Shown here piece by piece: positions 195 through 58,537 of a stretch of DNA of 64,000 nt. The DNA is from Venturia oleaginea (Eukaryota > Ascomycota > Dothideomycetes > Venturiales > Venturiaceae): contig JABMLP010000017.1 in the NCBI GenBank assembly GCA_013176395.1, forward strand, positions 496,001 to 560,000, in the 5' to 3' direction. The notes under the pieces were generated by a model that saw only the letters and a program-made list of their open reading frames with translations, ran no database searches and was not told the DNA's origin. A program made the position numbers and the translations under genes. Every line of letters begins with the position of its first letter. Within the stretch, counting starts at the first letter, position 1.

Positions 195-219
195 ACGTAG
201 TCGATGGGTTAGTGGCCAC
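195..219 (+). repeat. Left terminal inverted repeat of the pogo-like element
   Basis: This 25-nt repeat is complementary to 1629-1653 with two mismatches (terminal base and sixth base). It directly follows the TA target duplication. Confidence 0.9.
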
Positions 220-258
220 CTCACCAAATCGCGTCGCGTCATTCTACTACTATCCTCA

Positions 259-1556
259 ATGCCACCACCACAACAAGAAGAAGCCTTATACAAAGAAGGT
301 AGAATTGCTCTAGCGCTTCAAGCCTACCAGCAAGGCCAGTTTCAAACCCCTACTGCCGCTGCAAATGCCTTTGATATCCCCCGAACTACCCTTCGATGCC
401 GTATCGCCGGAATCCAACCACAGTTCGGCTCTATCTCAAAAAAACGCCTTCTTACACCTACCGAAGAAGAGAGTCTCGTACGATGGATCCTACCAATGGA
501 TCGACGCGGCATGCCACCTCGACAGGCGACTGTACGGCAAATGGCAGGCCTTTTAGTCGCGCAACACGGGAAACCAGGCTATATCGGTCAGGTCTGGGTC
601 CGCGACTTTATCAAGCGCCACGATACACTACAGTCAAAATACAATCGCAAGTACGACTACCAACGAGCAAAGTGCGAAGATCCGGAGCTTATTCGAGCCT
701 GGTTTCAACGGTTGGACGGTACAGGTTATTGATCCTTGATGGCCATGGCAGTCACTTTAGCCCTGAGTTTGATCAGTACTGCTTAGATCGCTCGATAGTT
801 GTTCTCTGTATGCCAGCGCATTCATCACATCTCCTCCAGCCACTTGATGTCGGCTGCTTTGCCGTACTCAAGCGATCGTACGGACGGCTTGTTGAGCAGA
901 AAATGGGCCTTGGCGTTAACCATATCGACAAGCAAGAGTTCCTACCTCTCTACCAGCAAGCACGCGCCGAAGCACTACACGAAAGGAACGTACGAAGCGG
1001 TTTTACAGCTACAGGCCTCGTTCCGTACGAGCCAGATCGTGTGCTCTCGCTCCTACACGCTCAGGTCCATACGCCATCCCCCCAGCTACATCCACAACCT
1101 GAGGCAGTATGGGTAGCCGAAACACCTCATAATATTACTGAGCTACAGCACCAAACAGACCTCCTGAAGCAATACCTCAAGCGTCGTACGCAAAGCCCAC
1201 CGTATCCGACAGACCAGGCCTTAAACCAGCTTGTAAAAGGTTGTCAGATAGCTATGCATAGCGCTGTCCTTCTTGCAAGCGAAAATGAGAAGCTACGTAC
1301 TGAGAACCAGCGCCAAAAGAGGAAGAAGGCAAAGAGGCGTACGTATATAGCGAGAGGCGGTGTTTTATCTGGGGTTCAGGCTCAGTTGTTGGTAAATAAT
1401 GGTGAAAGTAGCCGTACAGAGGCTGTACAAGACGGAATAGACGTGAGACGGCAACGGGCACCACCAAGGTGTAGCTTATGTGGGTCGCTTGAACATAAAG
1501 CCCCCCTGTATGCCCTGGGTATCAGCGCATCAATTGATATATATATATTATTGTAA
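259..1556 (+). pseudogene. Pogo transposase, internally deleted and frameshifted
   Basis: The first frame (259-732) encodes a Psq-type helix-turn-helix followed by a CENP-B/Tc5-type DNA-binding domain and stops just after the motif AWFQRLDG. Another frame overlapping its end (from about 705 to 1556) resumes with the late DDE-1 core: the second catalytic Asp in LDGHGSHF, then the LLQPLDVGCF block and a C-terminal CxxC...H knuckle-like tail. The segment of roughly 100 residues that should carry the first catalytic Asp is missing. The junction near 705-725 therefore combines a deletion with a frame change. No functional transposase can be made from this copy. Confidence 0.88.
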
Positions 1557-2552: not shown

Positions 2553-2706
2553 GGTGAGATGGCCGAGCGGTCTAAGTGAGTCTGTCGCAATGCTCCCTAG
2601 CTTCCACACTCCTAATAATTCAATAGGGCGCTAGGTTAAGGTCGAAAACCTTAGCGTTAATTTCCTAGTGGAGTGATCCTCGTGGGTTCGAATCCCACTC
2701 TCATCA
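2553..2706 (+). tRNA. tRNA-Leu(AAG) with a canonical intron and a GT-AG D-loop insertion
   Basis: The acceptor stem pairs 2553-2559 with 2699-2705 (one G-T pair), with discriminator A at 2706. Box A is at 2560-2570. The T-arm is 2682-2698 with box B ggttcgaatcc. A long class II variable arm precedes the T-arm. The anticodon stem CTAGG/CCTAG encloses anticodon AAG (2638-2640). A canonical 21-nt intron (2642-2662) follows position 37 and contains ACCTTA, complementary to the anticodon loop. A further 51 nt (2576-2626) interrupt the D-loop and start GTGAGT and end AATAG. Removing both leaves 82 nt with every stem paired, the normal size for tRNA-Leu. A TTTT terminator is at 2710-2713. The fold is certain; how the D-loop insert is removed, or whether it is, is unknown. 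Confidence 0.92.
2576..2626 (+). other. Spliceosomal-type intron candidate in the D-loop of tRNA-Leu
   Basis: It is 51 nt long, close to the protein introns of this window. The 5' end is GTGAGT, a possible branch region cctaataa lies at 2611-2618, and the 3' end is AATAG. It sits at the 3' edge of the D-loop, immediately before the GGC strand of the D-stem. Excision joins TCTAA to GGCG, the ordinary leucine D-arm. Confidence 0.75.
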
Positions 2707-3738
2707 ATCTTTTAGTTCTTTTTATCCCTCTGATCTTATCGTTGATCTGAATTGTGGCTGGTTGTGTGTCTTAGCTATTTTTTTTGTGGATCCACACCGG
2801 TTATCGATTGTGACTTTGCCGTGGGTCGTAGCCGTGCGCCTGAGAGACGTCGATTCGGACTTCGTGGTGCGCTTGAATTGCGCGGTTGCCTCATCCATCC
2901 AGTGCGGGTCCGCTGCAAGCTGGTACATAATCGATCTTGAGCAAAGGAAGGGAAACTGAAGGCGGCATAACAGATAAATTAACTGCCGTCTGCAGCGATT
3001 TGCCACCGAACATAGAAATGAAAGCCAGAAAGTCAATGATGACTAACTAACGAGCAGGAACTGACTCTTCTTGTCCGTAGAAACTAAAGGGATTGAAAGG
3101 ATCACGATGTTGAGTGATGTCAAGGCGGAGGGGAAAGAGATGGAAGTGTTCATAAGAGCAAACCAGCGTCTAGAATCATCATCCGCGCGGCTCTCCCATC
3201 TACTACAGTACAACAACAACATTCTATTTTTTCCACGCGTCCAAAGCCACCGATTAAGCGTTGACAAGCTCTTCGAGTGTAGGCTCTACCACTTTCATCT
3301 CAGTATCTCTTCTTCCGTTCGAAAGCATGAAAATACAAGCCGTTCTCGTTCCTCCTTTAAGCTTTGAGAATGTCAACACCAGGCGCCTCGCACTAAGTCC
3401 TATTTAGGTTCTGGGCATCTACGACGAGAAGCGAGAGACACGATTTGCCATGAAACCCAAAATCCTCGGTCAAGTCCGAACAAGATTCAGTGCAAATACC
3501 GCTCACACGAAGTTCCTTGCAGCAGTCAAAACCCCTCCAATACCTTTCTCGAACCACCATCATGCAGTTCTTCGATGATTTCCGCATATCCATTGTCTTT
3601 ACATCCGTCTTTCCGCTACAAACACCATAAATTGTCCGTCACACCCGTTCTCTATACCAATTCTAATCTATACTACCCATCACCATCGTATCAACAGTTT
3701 CAATTCCATCTCTCAATTTGCGTTTCCACATCACCACC
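2707..3738. other. Intergenic, no supported gene
   Basis: The only frames are under about 105 codons, overlap each other and show no domain. The first bases hold the Pol III terminator of the tRNA. Confidence 0.45.
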
Positions 3739-57159: not shown

Positions 57160-57671
57160 ACAAGAAGAACAGAATGCGGAAGAATTGATATTGATAGCGT
57201 GGCGTATACAACTCTCTGAATGTTGTGATTATATGGGAAGAGTTGGGATTCGGAAGTTGGGATTGTTTTGTATGAGTGCCATCATGGTACAAAGGGGTTG
57301 GCAAGGTAGCACCTACTTCATGTTACGAACAGCTTCAGAAGGTAAGACCTCGTAGAAAAATCTTCGGTTTGCTAATAATATGATCATTCAGAGTGCAGTC
57401 ATTCAGAAAGCAGGTTATTCCACGTACCATTTTTCTCGCGTTCAAGCGCTGGGGCTATGGACACAAAGAAATCCCCAAAACTTTATGTATGCACCACGTA
57501 AGTCCACACTCTTCAAGACAGTGCTATAACAGCACAGAGCACTGCTATTTGAGTGATTCTTTCTTAAATGCAGCAGAAGTCTTCTTAAACAAGTCCGTAC
57601 ACCCACCCACATTCCCAAAATAAGGCGTCAATCGAAACCATCACGAAGAGACCAAAAAAGATAGAAGATGT
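57160..57671. other. Intergenic upstream of the F-box-like gene
   Basis: No supported gene. The A6 run at 57654-57659 is the T6 terminator of the minus-strand tRNA-Glu. Confidence 0.5.
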
Positions 57672-57759
57672 TTCCGATGCCGGGGTTCGAACCCGGGTCG
57701 ATCCGGTATTCAATTATAACTTGAAAGCGGATAATGCTAAACCTCTACACTACATCGGA
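57672..57759 (-). tRNA. tRNA-Glu(TTC) with a canonical intron
   Basis: The acceptor TCCGATG pairs with CATCGGA, discriminator A at 57672. The anticodon stem ATCCG/CGGAT encloses anticodon TTC, followed by a 15-nt intron after position 37 that contains TTGAA, complementary to the anticodon loop. The T-arm CCGGG-TTCGAAC-CCCGG is perfect. The mature length is 73 nt. The D-arm is uninterrupted, in contrast to the Leu and Ala genes. The T6 terminator is at 57659-57654. Confidence 0.95.
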
Positions 57760-58465
57760 AATTGTATACCCTGGCTTCTCTCTGATAGAGATAACTAGAT
57801 CATTTCAACAACTGGATTGACATCAAGAAGTATCGGTGTCGTGTGTAGGTACTGGATTTGCCATGGCTTCATGGCTATCATTCCCCCCGAAAGGTCGATT
57901 CAGCTTCTGCTCTGCTCATAACCGATTTCTTGTCCGATCCTTAGTTTCGTACATAATGCTGTCTCTAAATCTAGGACTTTGCTGAGCTGGGCCATGGTAA
58001 AGTCGTGTGTCTCGATTGAAGCTTGATGGAAGCCACAACGAGTGCCGAAAGTGATACTTGGAGAGACCGTCTTGGTGTATCGTAGTCTATCGCATGCTTT
58101 GGACCAATTAAACAATATAAGCAGACCCTTGACATAATTATGGTTGCATAGATGTTGCGAGCATTGTAGGATGTCGTGCGTTCTCCGTTGTCGTGAAGCA
58201 GTACCCTGCAAAATCGATTGAATATCAGAAAATTCTCATTTCTAGCTCTTGCGAGAATCTTTCGGGGAAGATTTTGACCATCCAAAGAGTTTTGCTTAAT
58301 CGATGACAGGGTGCAGAACAGTGCGATGGGACCTCAAGTAGGTAAGTATAATGAATTGGGTAAGCAGCACAGCTAAGATTTGTTGAGTTGGTGCGGTAGA
58401 CAAGATACGATGGATAAATTATTTCCATTTATCAATGATTTCACACACCAGCCTCGATTAGATGA
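57760..58465. other. Intergenic between two tRNA genes
   Basis: No gene supported. Confidence 0.5.
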
Positions 58466-58537
58466 GGCCCTTTGGCGCAATGGTAGCGCGTCTCCCTCCT
58501 AAGGAGAAGGCTGTGCGTTCGAGTCGCATGAGGGTCG
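58466..58537 (+). tRNA. tRNA-Arg(CCT), intronless
   Basis: The acceptor GGCCCTT pairs with GAGGGTC (two wobble pairs), discriminator G. The D-arm is gcgcaatggtagcgc, the anticodon stem TCTCC/GGAGA holds CCT, and the T-arm is gtgcgttcgagtcgcat. It is 72 nt long with no introns. A T6 run lies 30 nt downstream (58567-58572). Confidence 0.95.

Follow-up and report, generated by a model that had tools for sequence, protein, structure and literature searches.

Candidate spliceosomal introns in nuclear tRNA genes of the ascomycete Venturia oleaginea

The question raised by a tRNA-Leu(AAG) gene of Venturia oleaginea is whether a nuclear tRNA gene can harbour, besides the canonical tRNA intron, an intron of the kind handled by the spliceosome. 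By the usual account, a single enzyme deals with the introns of nuclear tRNAs, namely the tRNA splicing endonuclease, and these introns typically sit in the anticodon loop (reviewed in PMC4090602). The gene is located in a 64,000-nt stretch of DNA, hereafter the window (assembly GCA_013176395.1, contig JABMLP010000017.1, positions 496,001 to 560,000, forward strand), within which positions are counted from the first base.

The tRNA-Leu(AAG) gene occupies positions 2553–2706 (+) and is interrupted twice; its 154 nt are reduced to 82 nt with both introns out. Exon 1 (2553–2575, +), whose sequence is shared by the paralogs, comprises the 5' acceptor strand and the D-arm through TCTAA. It is followed by an insert of 51 nt with the build of a spliceosomal intron (2576–2626, +), which starts with GTGAGT, ends with CCTAATAATTCAATAG (the last five bases being AATAG), and contains the branch-site motif CTAAT at 2612–2616 (+), whose A (2615) is 11 nt from the 3' end of the intron. 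Exon 2 (2627–2641, +) was read as the remaining D-arm, the 5' anticodon strand, and the anticodon AAG (2638–2640). The canonical anticodon-loop intron of 21 nt (2642–2662, +) lies after position 37 and displays a 4-bp helix of the bulge-helix-bulge (BHB) type, TTAA/TTAA. Exon 3 (2663–2706, +), also assigned by reading, provides the 3' anticodon strand, the variable arm, the T-arm, the 3' acceptor strand, and A73; the sequence of this copy has no T-arm intron. Excision of 2576–2626 joins TCTAA to GGCG and regains a standard tRNA-Leu D-loop.

The first-pass annotation, made from the letters of this stretch, had placed a 51-nt segment with a possible branch region in the D-loop of an apparently functional tRNA-Leu(AAG) gene, and this description stood up to inspection in its coordinates and its branch motif. 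The length of 82 nt without both introns was reproduced by computation. The acceptor, anticodon, and T stems pair as claimed, with one G-U pair in the acceptor stem. Box A (TGGCCGAGCGG, 2560–2570, +) and box B (GGTTCGAATCC, 2685–2695, +), located by reading and by pattern match, are whole, and box A is wholly upstream of the insert. The TTTT terminator that had been noted corresponds to two terminator-like T-runs, TTTT at 2710–2713 and TTTTT at 2719–2723 (+). As it stands, the gene was reported neither by ARAGORN nor by Rfam in scans of the window, and with introns allowed ARAGORN called the unspliced gene a tRNA-Ala. With the D-loop insert excised, it called a tRNA-Leu with the right ends; the anticodon was given as TAA, not AAG, because the anticodon intron was misplaced. 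Random inserts of the same composition allowed a GT..AG reading in 0.9% of trials.

The window contains two other tRNA genes identified by ARAGORN and Rfam: tRNA-Lys(TTT) with an insertion in the anticodon loop (57670–57760, -) and intronless tRNA-Arg(CCT) (58466–58537, +). Two overlapping open frames at 196–1556 (+) were judged by eye to resemble a DNA transposase carrying a cysteine motif at its C terminus. The whole window yielded only two Rfam matches at gathering score, both of them tRNA, and thus no group I or group II self-splicing intron at that score. Inserts of 47–89 nt, the range found in this genome, are too short for a group I or II catalytic core.

A search of the 46-Mb genome for the Leu D-arm motif returned seven places, five of which carry an insert (51–55 nt) at the identical site and two of which do not; this recurrence is more than chance would give. 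A wider Leu search with one mismatch allowed revealed 17 places, namely 12 tRNA-Leu genes and five sequences other than tRNA. Nine of the 12 genes are interrupted, the remaining three having the anticodons TAA, CAA, and TAG. All five Leu(AAG) genes reach 82 nt after intron removal. One of these, L080 (G000:C59, ~99,900–100,200), represents a second family of Leu(AAG) and combines three introns of spliceosomal type with the canonical anticodon intron, giving 82 nt when spliced.

Genes for other amino acids are also affected. Reading of 45 of the 58 Rfam tRNA matches identified five more interrupted genes, all with the insert in the T-arm: Arg(TCT), two Ser(AGA), Ser(GCT), and Gly(CCC). Of the other 13 matches, 12 lie on contig C38, presumed to be mitochondrial, and the last falls within the window. 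Two identical copies of a tRNA-Arg(TCG) of organelle-like composition (L047 and L078) were observed in opposite orientation on another, small contig, G000:C58, of 18,945 bases.

Scans for a splice-acceptor motif at box B added further interrupted genes to the census. The four T-arm scans gave 19 matches with six interrupted tRNAs (17 matches for the reversed-pattern control), 11 matches with three interrupted tRNAs and one ordinary tRNA-Gln (control, 10), 15 matches with six interrupted tRNAs and the same tRNA-Gln (control, 5), and 6 matches with two interrupted tRNAs (control, 9). Raw match numbers in most motif scans were about the same as or below those of the reversed controls, and the genes stand apart only when inspected.

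Two scans for box A with GTRNGT/GTANGT addressed D-loop introns outside Leu, and no such intron was identified among the matches read. The first gave seven matches, of which five were genuine, all Leu, and two were not tRNA. The second gave 19 matches (67 with the reversed pattern), including four Leu genes; ten of the other 15 were read and contained no tRNA. The five outside these ten comprise one that overlaps a match already read, one that is L022, seen earlier, one that is letter-identical to two of those read, and two remaining ones. An identical 22-base match, TGGCGCAGCGGCTACTGTACGT, was observed at three places (L114 and L115; G000:C24, C25, and C60), two of which are alike over the whole 250-base stretch and represent a repeated element other than tRNA.

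In total, the genome contains at least 18 interrupted tRNA genes (Leu, Ser, Arg-TCT, and Gly-CCC) with 27 inserts. The number of genes is a lower bound, as scoring in the Rfam scan covered 63 of 1697 candidates. By site, nine inserts are in the D-loop (all Leu), two in the anticodon stem (Leu L080 and Ser L101), and 16 in the T-arm at the edge of box B. Intronless copies were found for Leu(TAA), Leu(TAG), Leu(CAA), Ser(AGA), and Ser(GCT).

Twenty-six of the 27 inserts measure 47–55 nt and one 89 nt, with a median of 52 nt. The 5' site GTRNG is present in 23/27 inserts (8.2% in interior shuffles), and CTRAY with its A 8–20 nt from the 3' end is also present in 23/27 (6.6% in shuffles), being absent from four. 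The 3' end is YAG in 23/27, and all three signals occur jointly in 16/27. As some scans demanded intron signals, the set was split by discovery route. The 15 genes found without any such requirement (21 inserts) show GTRNG in 19/21, CTRAY in 19/21, and YAG in 17/21; the corresponding values for the three genes found only via signals (6 inserts) are 4/6, 4/6, and 6/6. The GT..AG ends seen in 27/27 inserts are partly so by construction, because the gene patterns demanded GT..AG. When the junctions were set against intronless paralogs and GT-AG was not assumed, GT..AG was among the best registers in 18/18 testable inserts. For comparison, the available text of a study on Fusarium introns gives CTRAY in 91% and YAG followed by a purine in 94% (PMC5677156).

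Coding introns of the window were obtained by spliced comparison with Venturia proteins. Six were recovered from the squalene synthase and inositol-phosphatase genes; they measure 48–59 nt and 4/6 contain CTRAY, with two of the junctions uncertain. The tRNA inserts thus match the coding introns of the window in size and build (median of 52 nt vs 48–59 nt). At ERG9 intron 3, GC..AG outscored GT..AG by one point, and the row listed for ERG9 intron 4 extends 6 nt beyond the TAG taken as its end. The spliced comparison with Venturia proteins gave no intron at the second ERG9 junction or in the spindle-pole gene. A hexamer-based scan of the window for coding introns had produced 736 candidate junctions, mostly noise, and was dropped in favour of the protein comparison. 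The squalene synthase of the window is 95% identical to its Venturia effusa counterpart, the alignment spanning 96% of the query. The spindle-pole protein is 87% identical to that of V. inaequalis and 83% to that of V. nashicola, and the inositol phosphatase is 84% identical to those of both V. inaequalis and V. nashicola.

With the inserts out, ARAGORN reported a tRNA of the expected type in 17/18 genes, missing only L081. With the inserts kept, it called 2/18, both wrongly, and reported nothing for the other 16. Exons of same-isoacceptor pairs share 90–100% identity, or 77–81% when one member is L080, which belongs to the separate family. The inserts of same-isoacceptor pairs are 52–67% identical, with 52–59% for shuffles. 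Exons are therefore held while the inserts drift. Introners and introner-like elements could explain the arrival of introns at many sites. Their mark is many near-identical copies; among pairs of inserts from the same isoacceptor and the same arm, identity is at about shuffle level, with one slight excess (67% vs 58%).

Preservation of the exons also bears on the idea that the interrupted copies are pseudogenes, whose inserts are never removed, and that the cell relies on intronless tRNA genes. Intronless copies do occur for the five isoacceptors listed above, and three of the interrupted genes appear damaged. L081 (G000:C34, ~343,500) is Leu-like, has its D-loop deleted, retains a GT..AG insert in the T-arm, and is probably a pseudogene. 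The Arg(TCT) gene L113 (G000:C20:147,120) has A at position 33, and L079 has one T-stem strand short by one C. Against this idea, conserved exons surround diverged inserts, and splice signals would not persist in decayed genes. Inserts were present in 5/5 Leu(AAG), 2/2 Leu(CAG), and 2/2 Arg(TCT) genes found, and the intronless Leu(CAA) gene L015 itself shows an additional T at the acceptor end. We therefore regard general decay of the interrupted genes as highly improbable.

Another machine could in principle remove the inserts. In archaea and red algae, the tRNA endonuclease acts on BHB motifs, and the inserts might be ectopic introns of this type, which the tRNA splicing endonuclease would excise at such motifs before an RNA ligase joined the exons. 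Introns in the D- and T-arms that are removed outside the spliceosome have been described for Cyanidioschyzon merolae and the nucleomorph of Guillardia theta; in these organisms and in crenarchaea, ectopic introns resemble those of V. oleaginea in occupying the D-arm, the T-arm, and off-centre anticodon sites, with up to three per tRNA gene (available text of PMC4090602 and PMC3978253). The inserts reported for G. theta are 3 to 24 nt long, unlike those of 47–55 nt with spliceosomal signals found here. We tested whether exon 1 can form a central helix of 4 bp, flanked by 3-nt bulges, with the 3' end of the intron. In exact register, this helix was present in 0/27 inserts (1.3% of shuffles), and 3 bp were formed in 4/27; with one base of slack, the 4-bp helix was present in 2/27 (10.3% of shuffles). 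Applied to the canonical intron in each of the five Leu(AAG) genes, the test gave 4, 4, 3, 3, and 3 bp. Some ectopic introns of G. theta have no defined BHB according to these sources, so the missing motif is not final against the endonuclease. The endonuclease, however, has no need of GTRNG, CTRAY, or AG, yet these were kept while the remaining insert diverged. The absence of an exact-register helix together with the kept splice signals points to the spliceosome, and removal by the endonuclease appears very unlikely. The canonical intron at 37/38 is present in the same Leu genes, with 21 nt in the window copy; the new inserts differ from it in their location (D-loop, T-arm, and anticodon stem) and their signals.

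The arrangement of promoter elements fits transcription by Pol III, as judged from the boxes and T-runs. D-loop inserts directly follow box A, T-arm inserts directly precede box B, and where an insert abuts a box, its own edge G mostly completes that box. Box B was matched in 18/18 genes and box A in 15/18; among the three exceptions, L080 has an intron inside box A, L127 has a variant box A, and the third is L081. A run of at least four T was found within 40 nt 3' of the gene in 17/18. The first run of five T in the Arg(TCT) gene L070 (G000:C6:461,000) occurs only ~80 nt downstream. Three inserts contain TTTT, which might slow Pol III, and no longer run is present in any insert.

Since the usual substrates of the spliceosome are Pol II transcripts, we also considered that Pol II reads these genes within longer transcripts and that splicing takes place there, the joined tRNA sequence being a by-product or retrotransposon-like source rather than a tRNA. 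The Pol III promoter boxes and T-runs have been kept, and the inserts adjoin the boxes and leave them whole, the exceptions being L080, L081, and L127 with its variant box A. In addition, U6 is a precedent for spliced Pol III transcripts. This makes the Pol II reading extremely improbable.

Genes for U6 snRNA in V. oleaginea have a similar organization. Of seven matches in the genome, loci L134, L135, and L136 contain core inserts of 52, 58, and 49 nt, the last one without CTRAY. Reading of the upstream DNA of L131–L133 revealed a GT..AG segment of 48, 48, and 57 nt, respectively, between a TTCGG stem-loop, which we take to be the U6 5' end, and the remaining U6; the 3' junction of L133 is unlike the others and uncertain. 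Other Pol III genes of V. oleaginea thus carry introns of the same kind. No intron was present in the 33 matches to 5S rRNA, each of 106–121 nt, among 47 scored of 2145 candidates, where an interrupted gene would score lower.

Two precedents for mRNA-type introns in non-coding RNA are relevant. Fission yeast U6, a Pol III transcript, has such an intron, which is spliced and is thought to have arisen by reverse splicing (PMC10484740, available text). As in the genes examined here, an intron of spliceosomal type interrupts a Pol III transcript that is short and structured. The difference is that U6 belongs to the spliceosome, whereas the V. oleaginea introns reside in tRNA genes beside internal promoter boxes, and that some of these molecules hold a second, enzymatically different intron. 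Fungal U3 snoRNA genes also contain short GT-AG introns in a non-coding RNA, with RCTRAC branch sites (PMC5832005). These concern another RNA class and one main site, with splicing directly evidenced in two species according to work cited in the same paper, while the tRNA inserts were recognised from sequence.

Taken together, the window gene is very probably a functional nuclear tRNA gene whose D-loop insert is an intron of the major (U2-type) spliceosome, in a lineage that has many such introns. The spliceosomal-type reading of the D-loop segment in the first-pass annotation is thus borne out as the best one by 17 more tRNA genes with such inserts and by conserved exons around diverged inserts; the BHB test and the similar introns in protein genes of the window and in U6 add to it. 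Pol III would transcribe the entire interrupted gene from its internal boxes. In the nucleus, the spliceosome would then recognise the precursor by GTRNG, by CTRAY at the branch site, and by AG, and the introns of the D-loop, T-arm, and anticodon stem would leave as lariats, thereby restoring the cloverleaf. Where a canonical anticodon intron is present, it would next be excised by the tRNA splicing endonuclease; this step is placed after the spliceosome because the endonuclease measures the mature fold. The product would be used as a tRNA.

The spliceosome as a machine is known; tRNA as its target is new. Our literature search revealed no report of spliceosomal introns in tRNA within its coverage, outside which lie most subscription journals and bioRxiv, so that a report elsewhere is possible. 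The available text of a review on tRNA introns (PMC4090602) contains no word beginning with 'spliceosom'.

Several isoacceptors may have no uninterrupted gene. With three mismatches allowed at most, the Arg(TCT) anticodon arm was matched at two places in the genome, L113 and L070, both with a T-arm intron. Among Leu isoacceptors, the genes found interrupted are 5/5 for AAG, 2/2 for CAG, 2/3 for CAA, and 1/2 for TAG. These counts leave room for copies with a more divergent anticodon arm or lost from the assembly. Because both tRNA-Arg(UCU) genes found are interrupted, reading of AGA could require spliceosomal splicing. We tentatively suggest, as a possibility somewhat short of even, that decoding in V. 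oleaginea depends on the spliceosome: AGA could not be decoded until the spliceosome had processed a Pol III pre-tRNA, and for some tRNA-Leu two splicing machines would have to act in a set order, with up to four introns per 82-nt tRNA (L080).

All 18 unspliced genes were missed or misread by ARAGORN, and tRNA counts in such genomes may therefore be too low. If the inserts are spliced as proposed, tRNA would join the substrates of the spliceosome, and some tRNAs would need two unrelated splicing machines. Introns would have invaded genes with internal promoters, settling beside boxes A and B, which were mostly left whole, and about two dozen sites would be available for testing reverse splicing as an intron source. 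The capacity of the spliceosome would then be linked to the decoding of certain codons.
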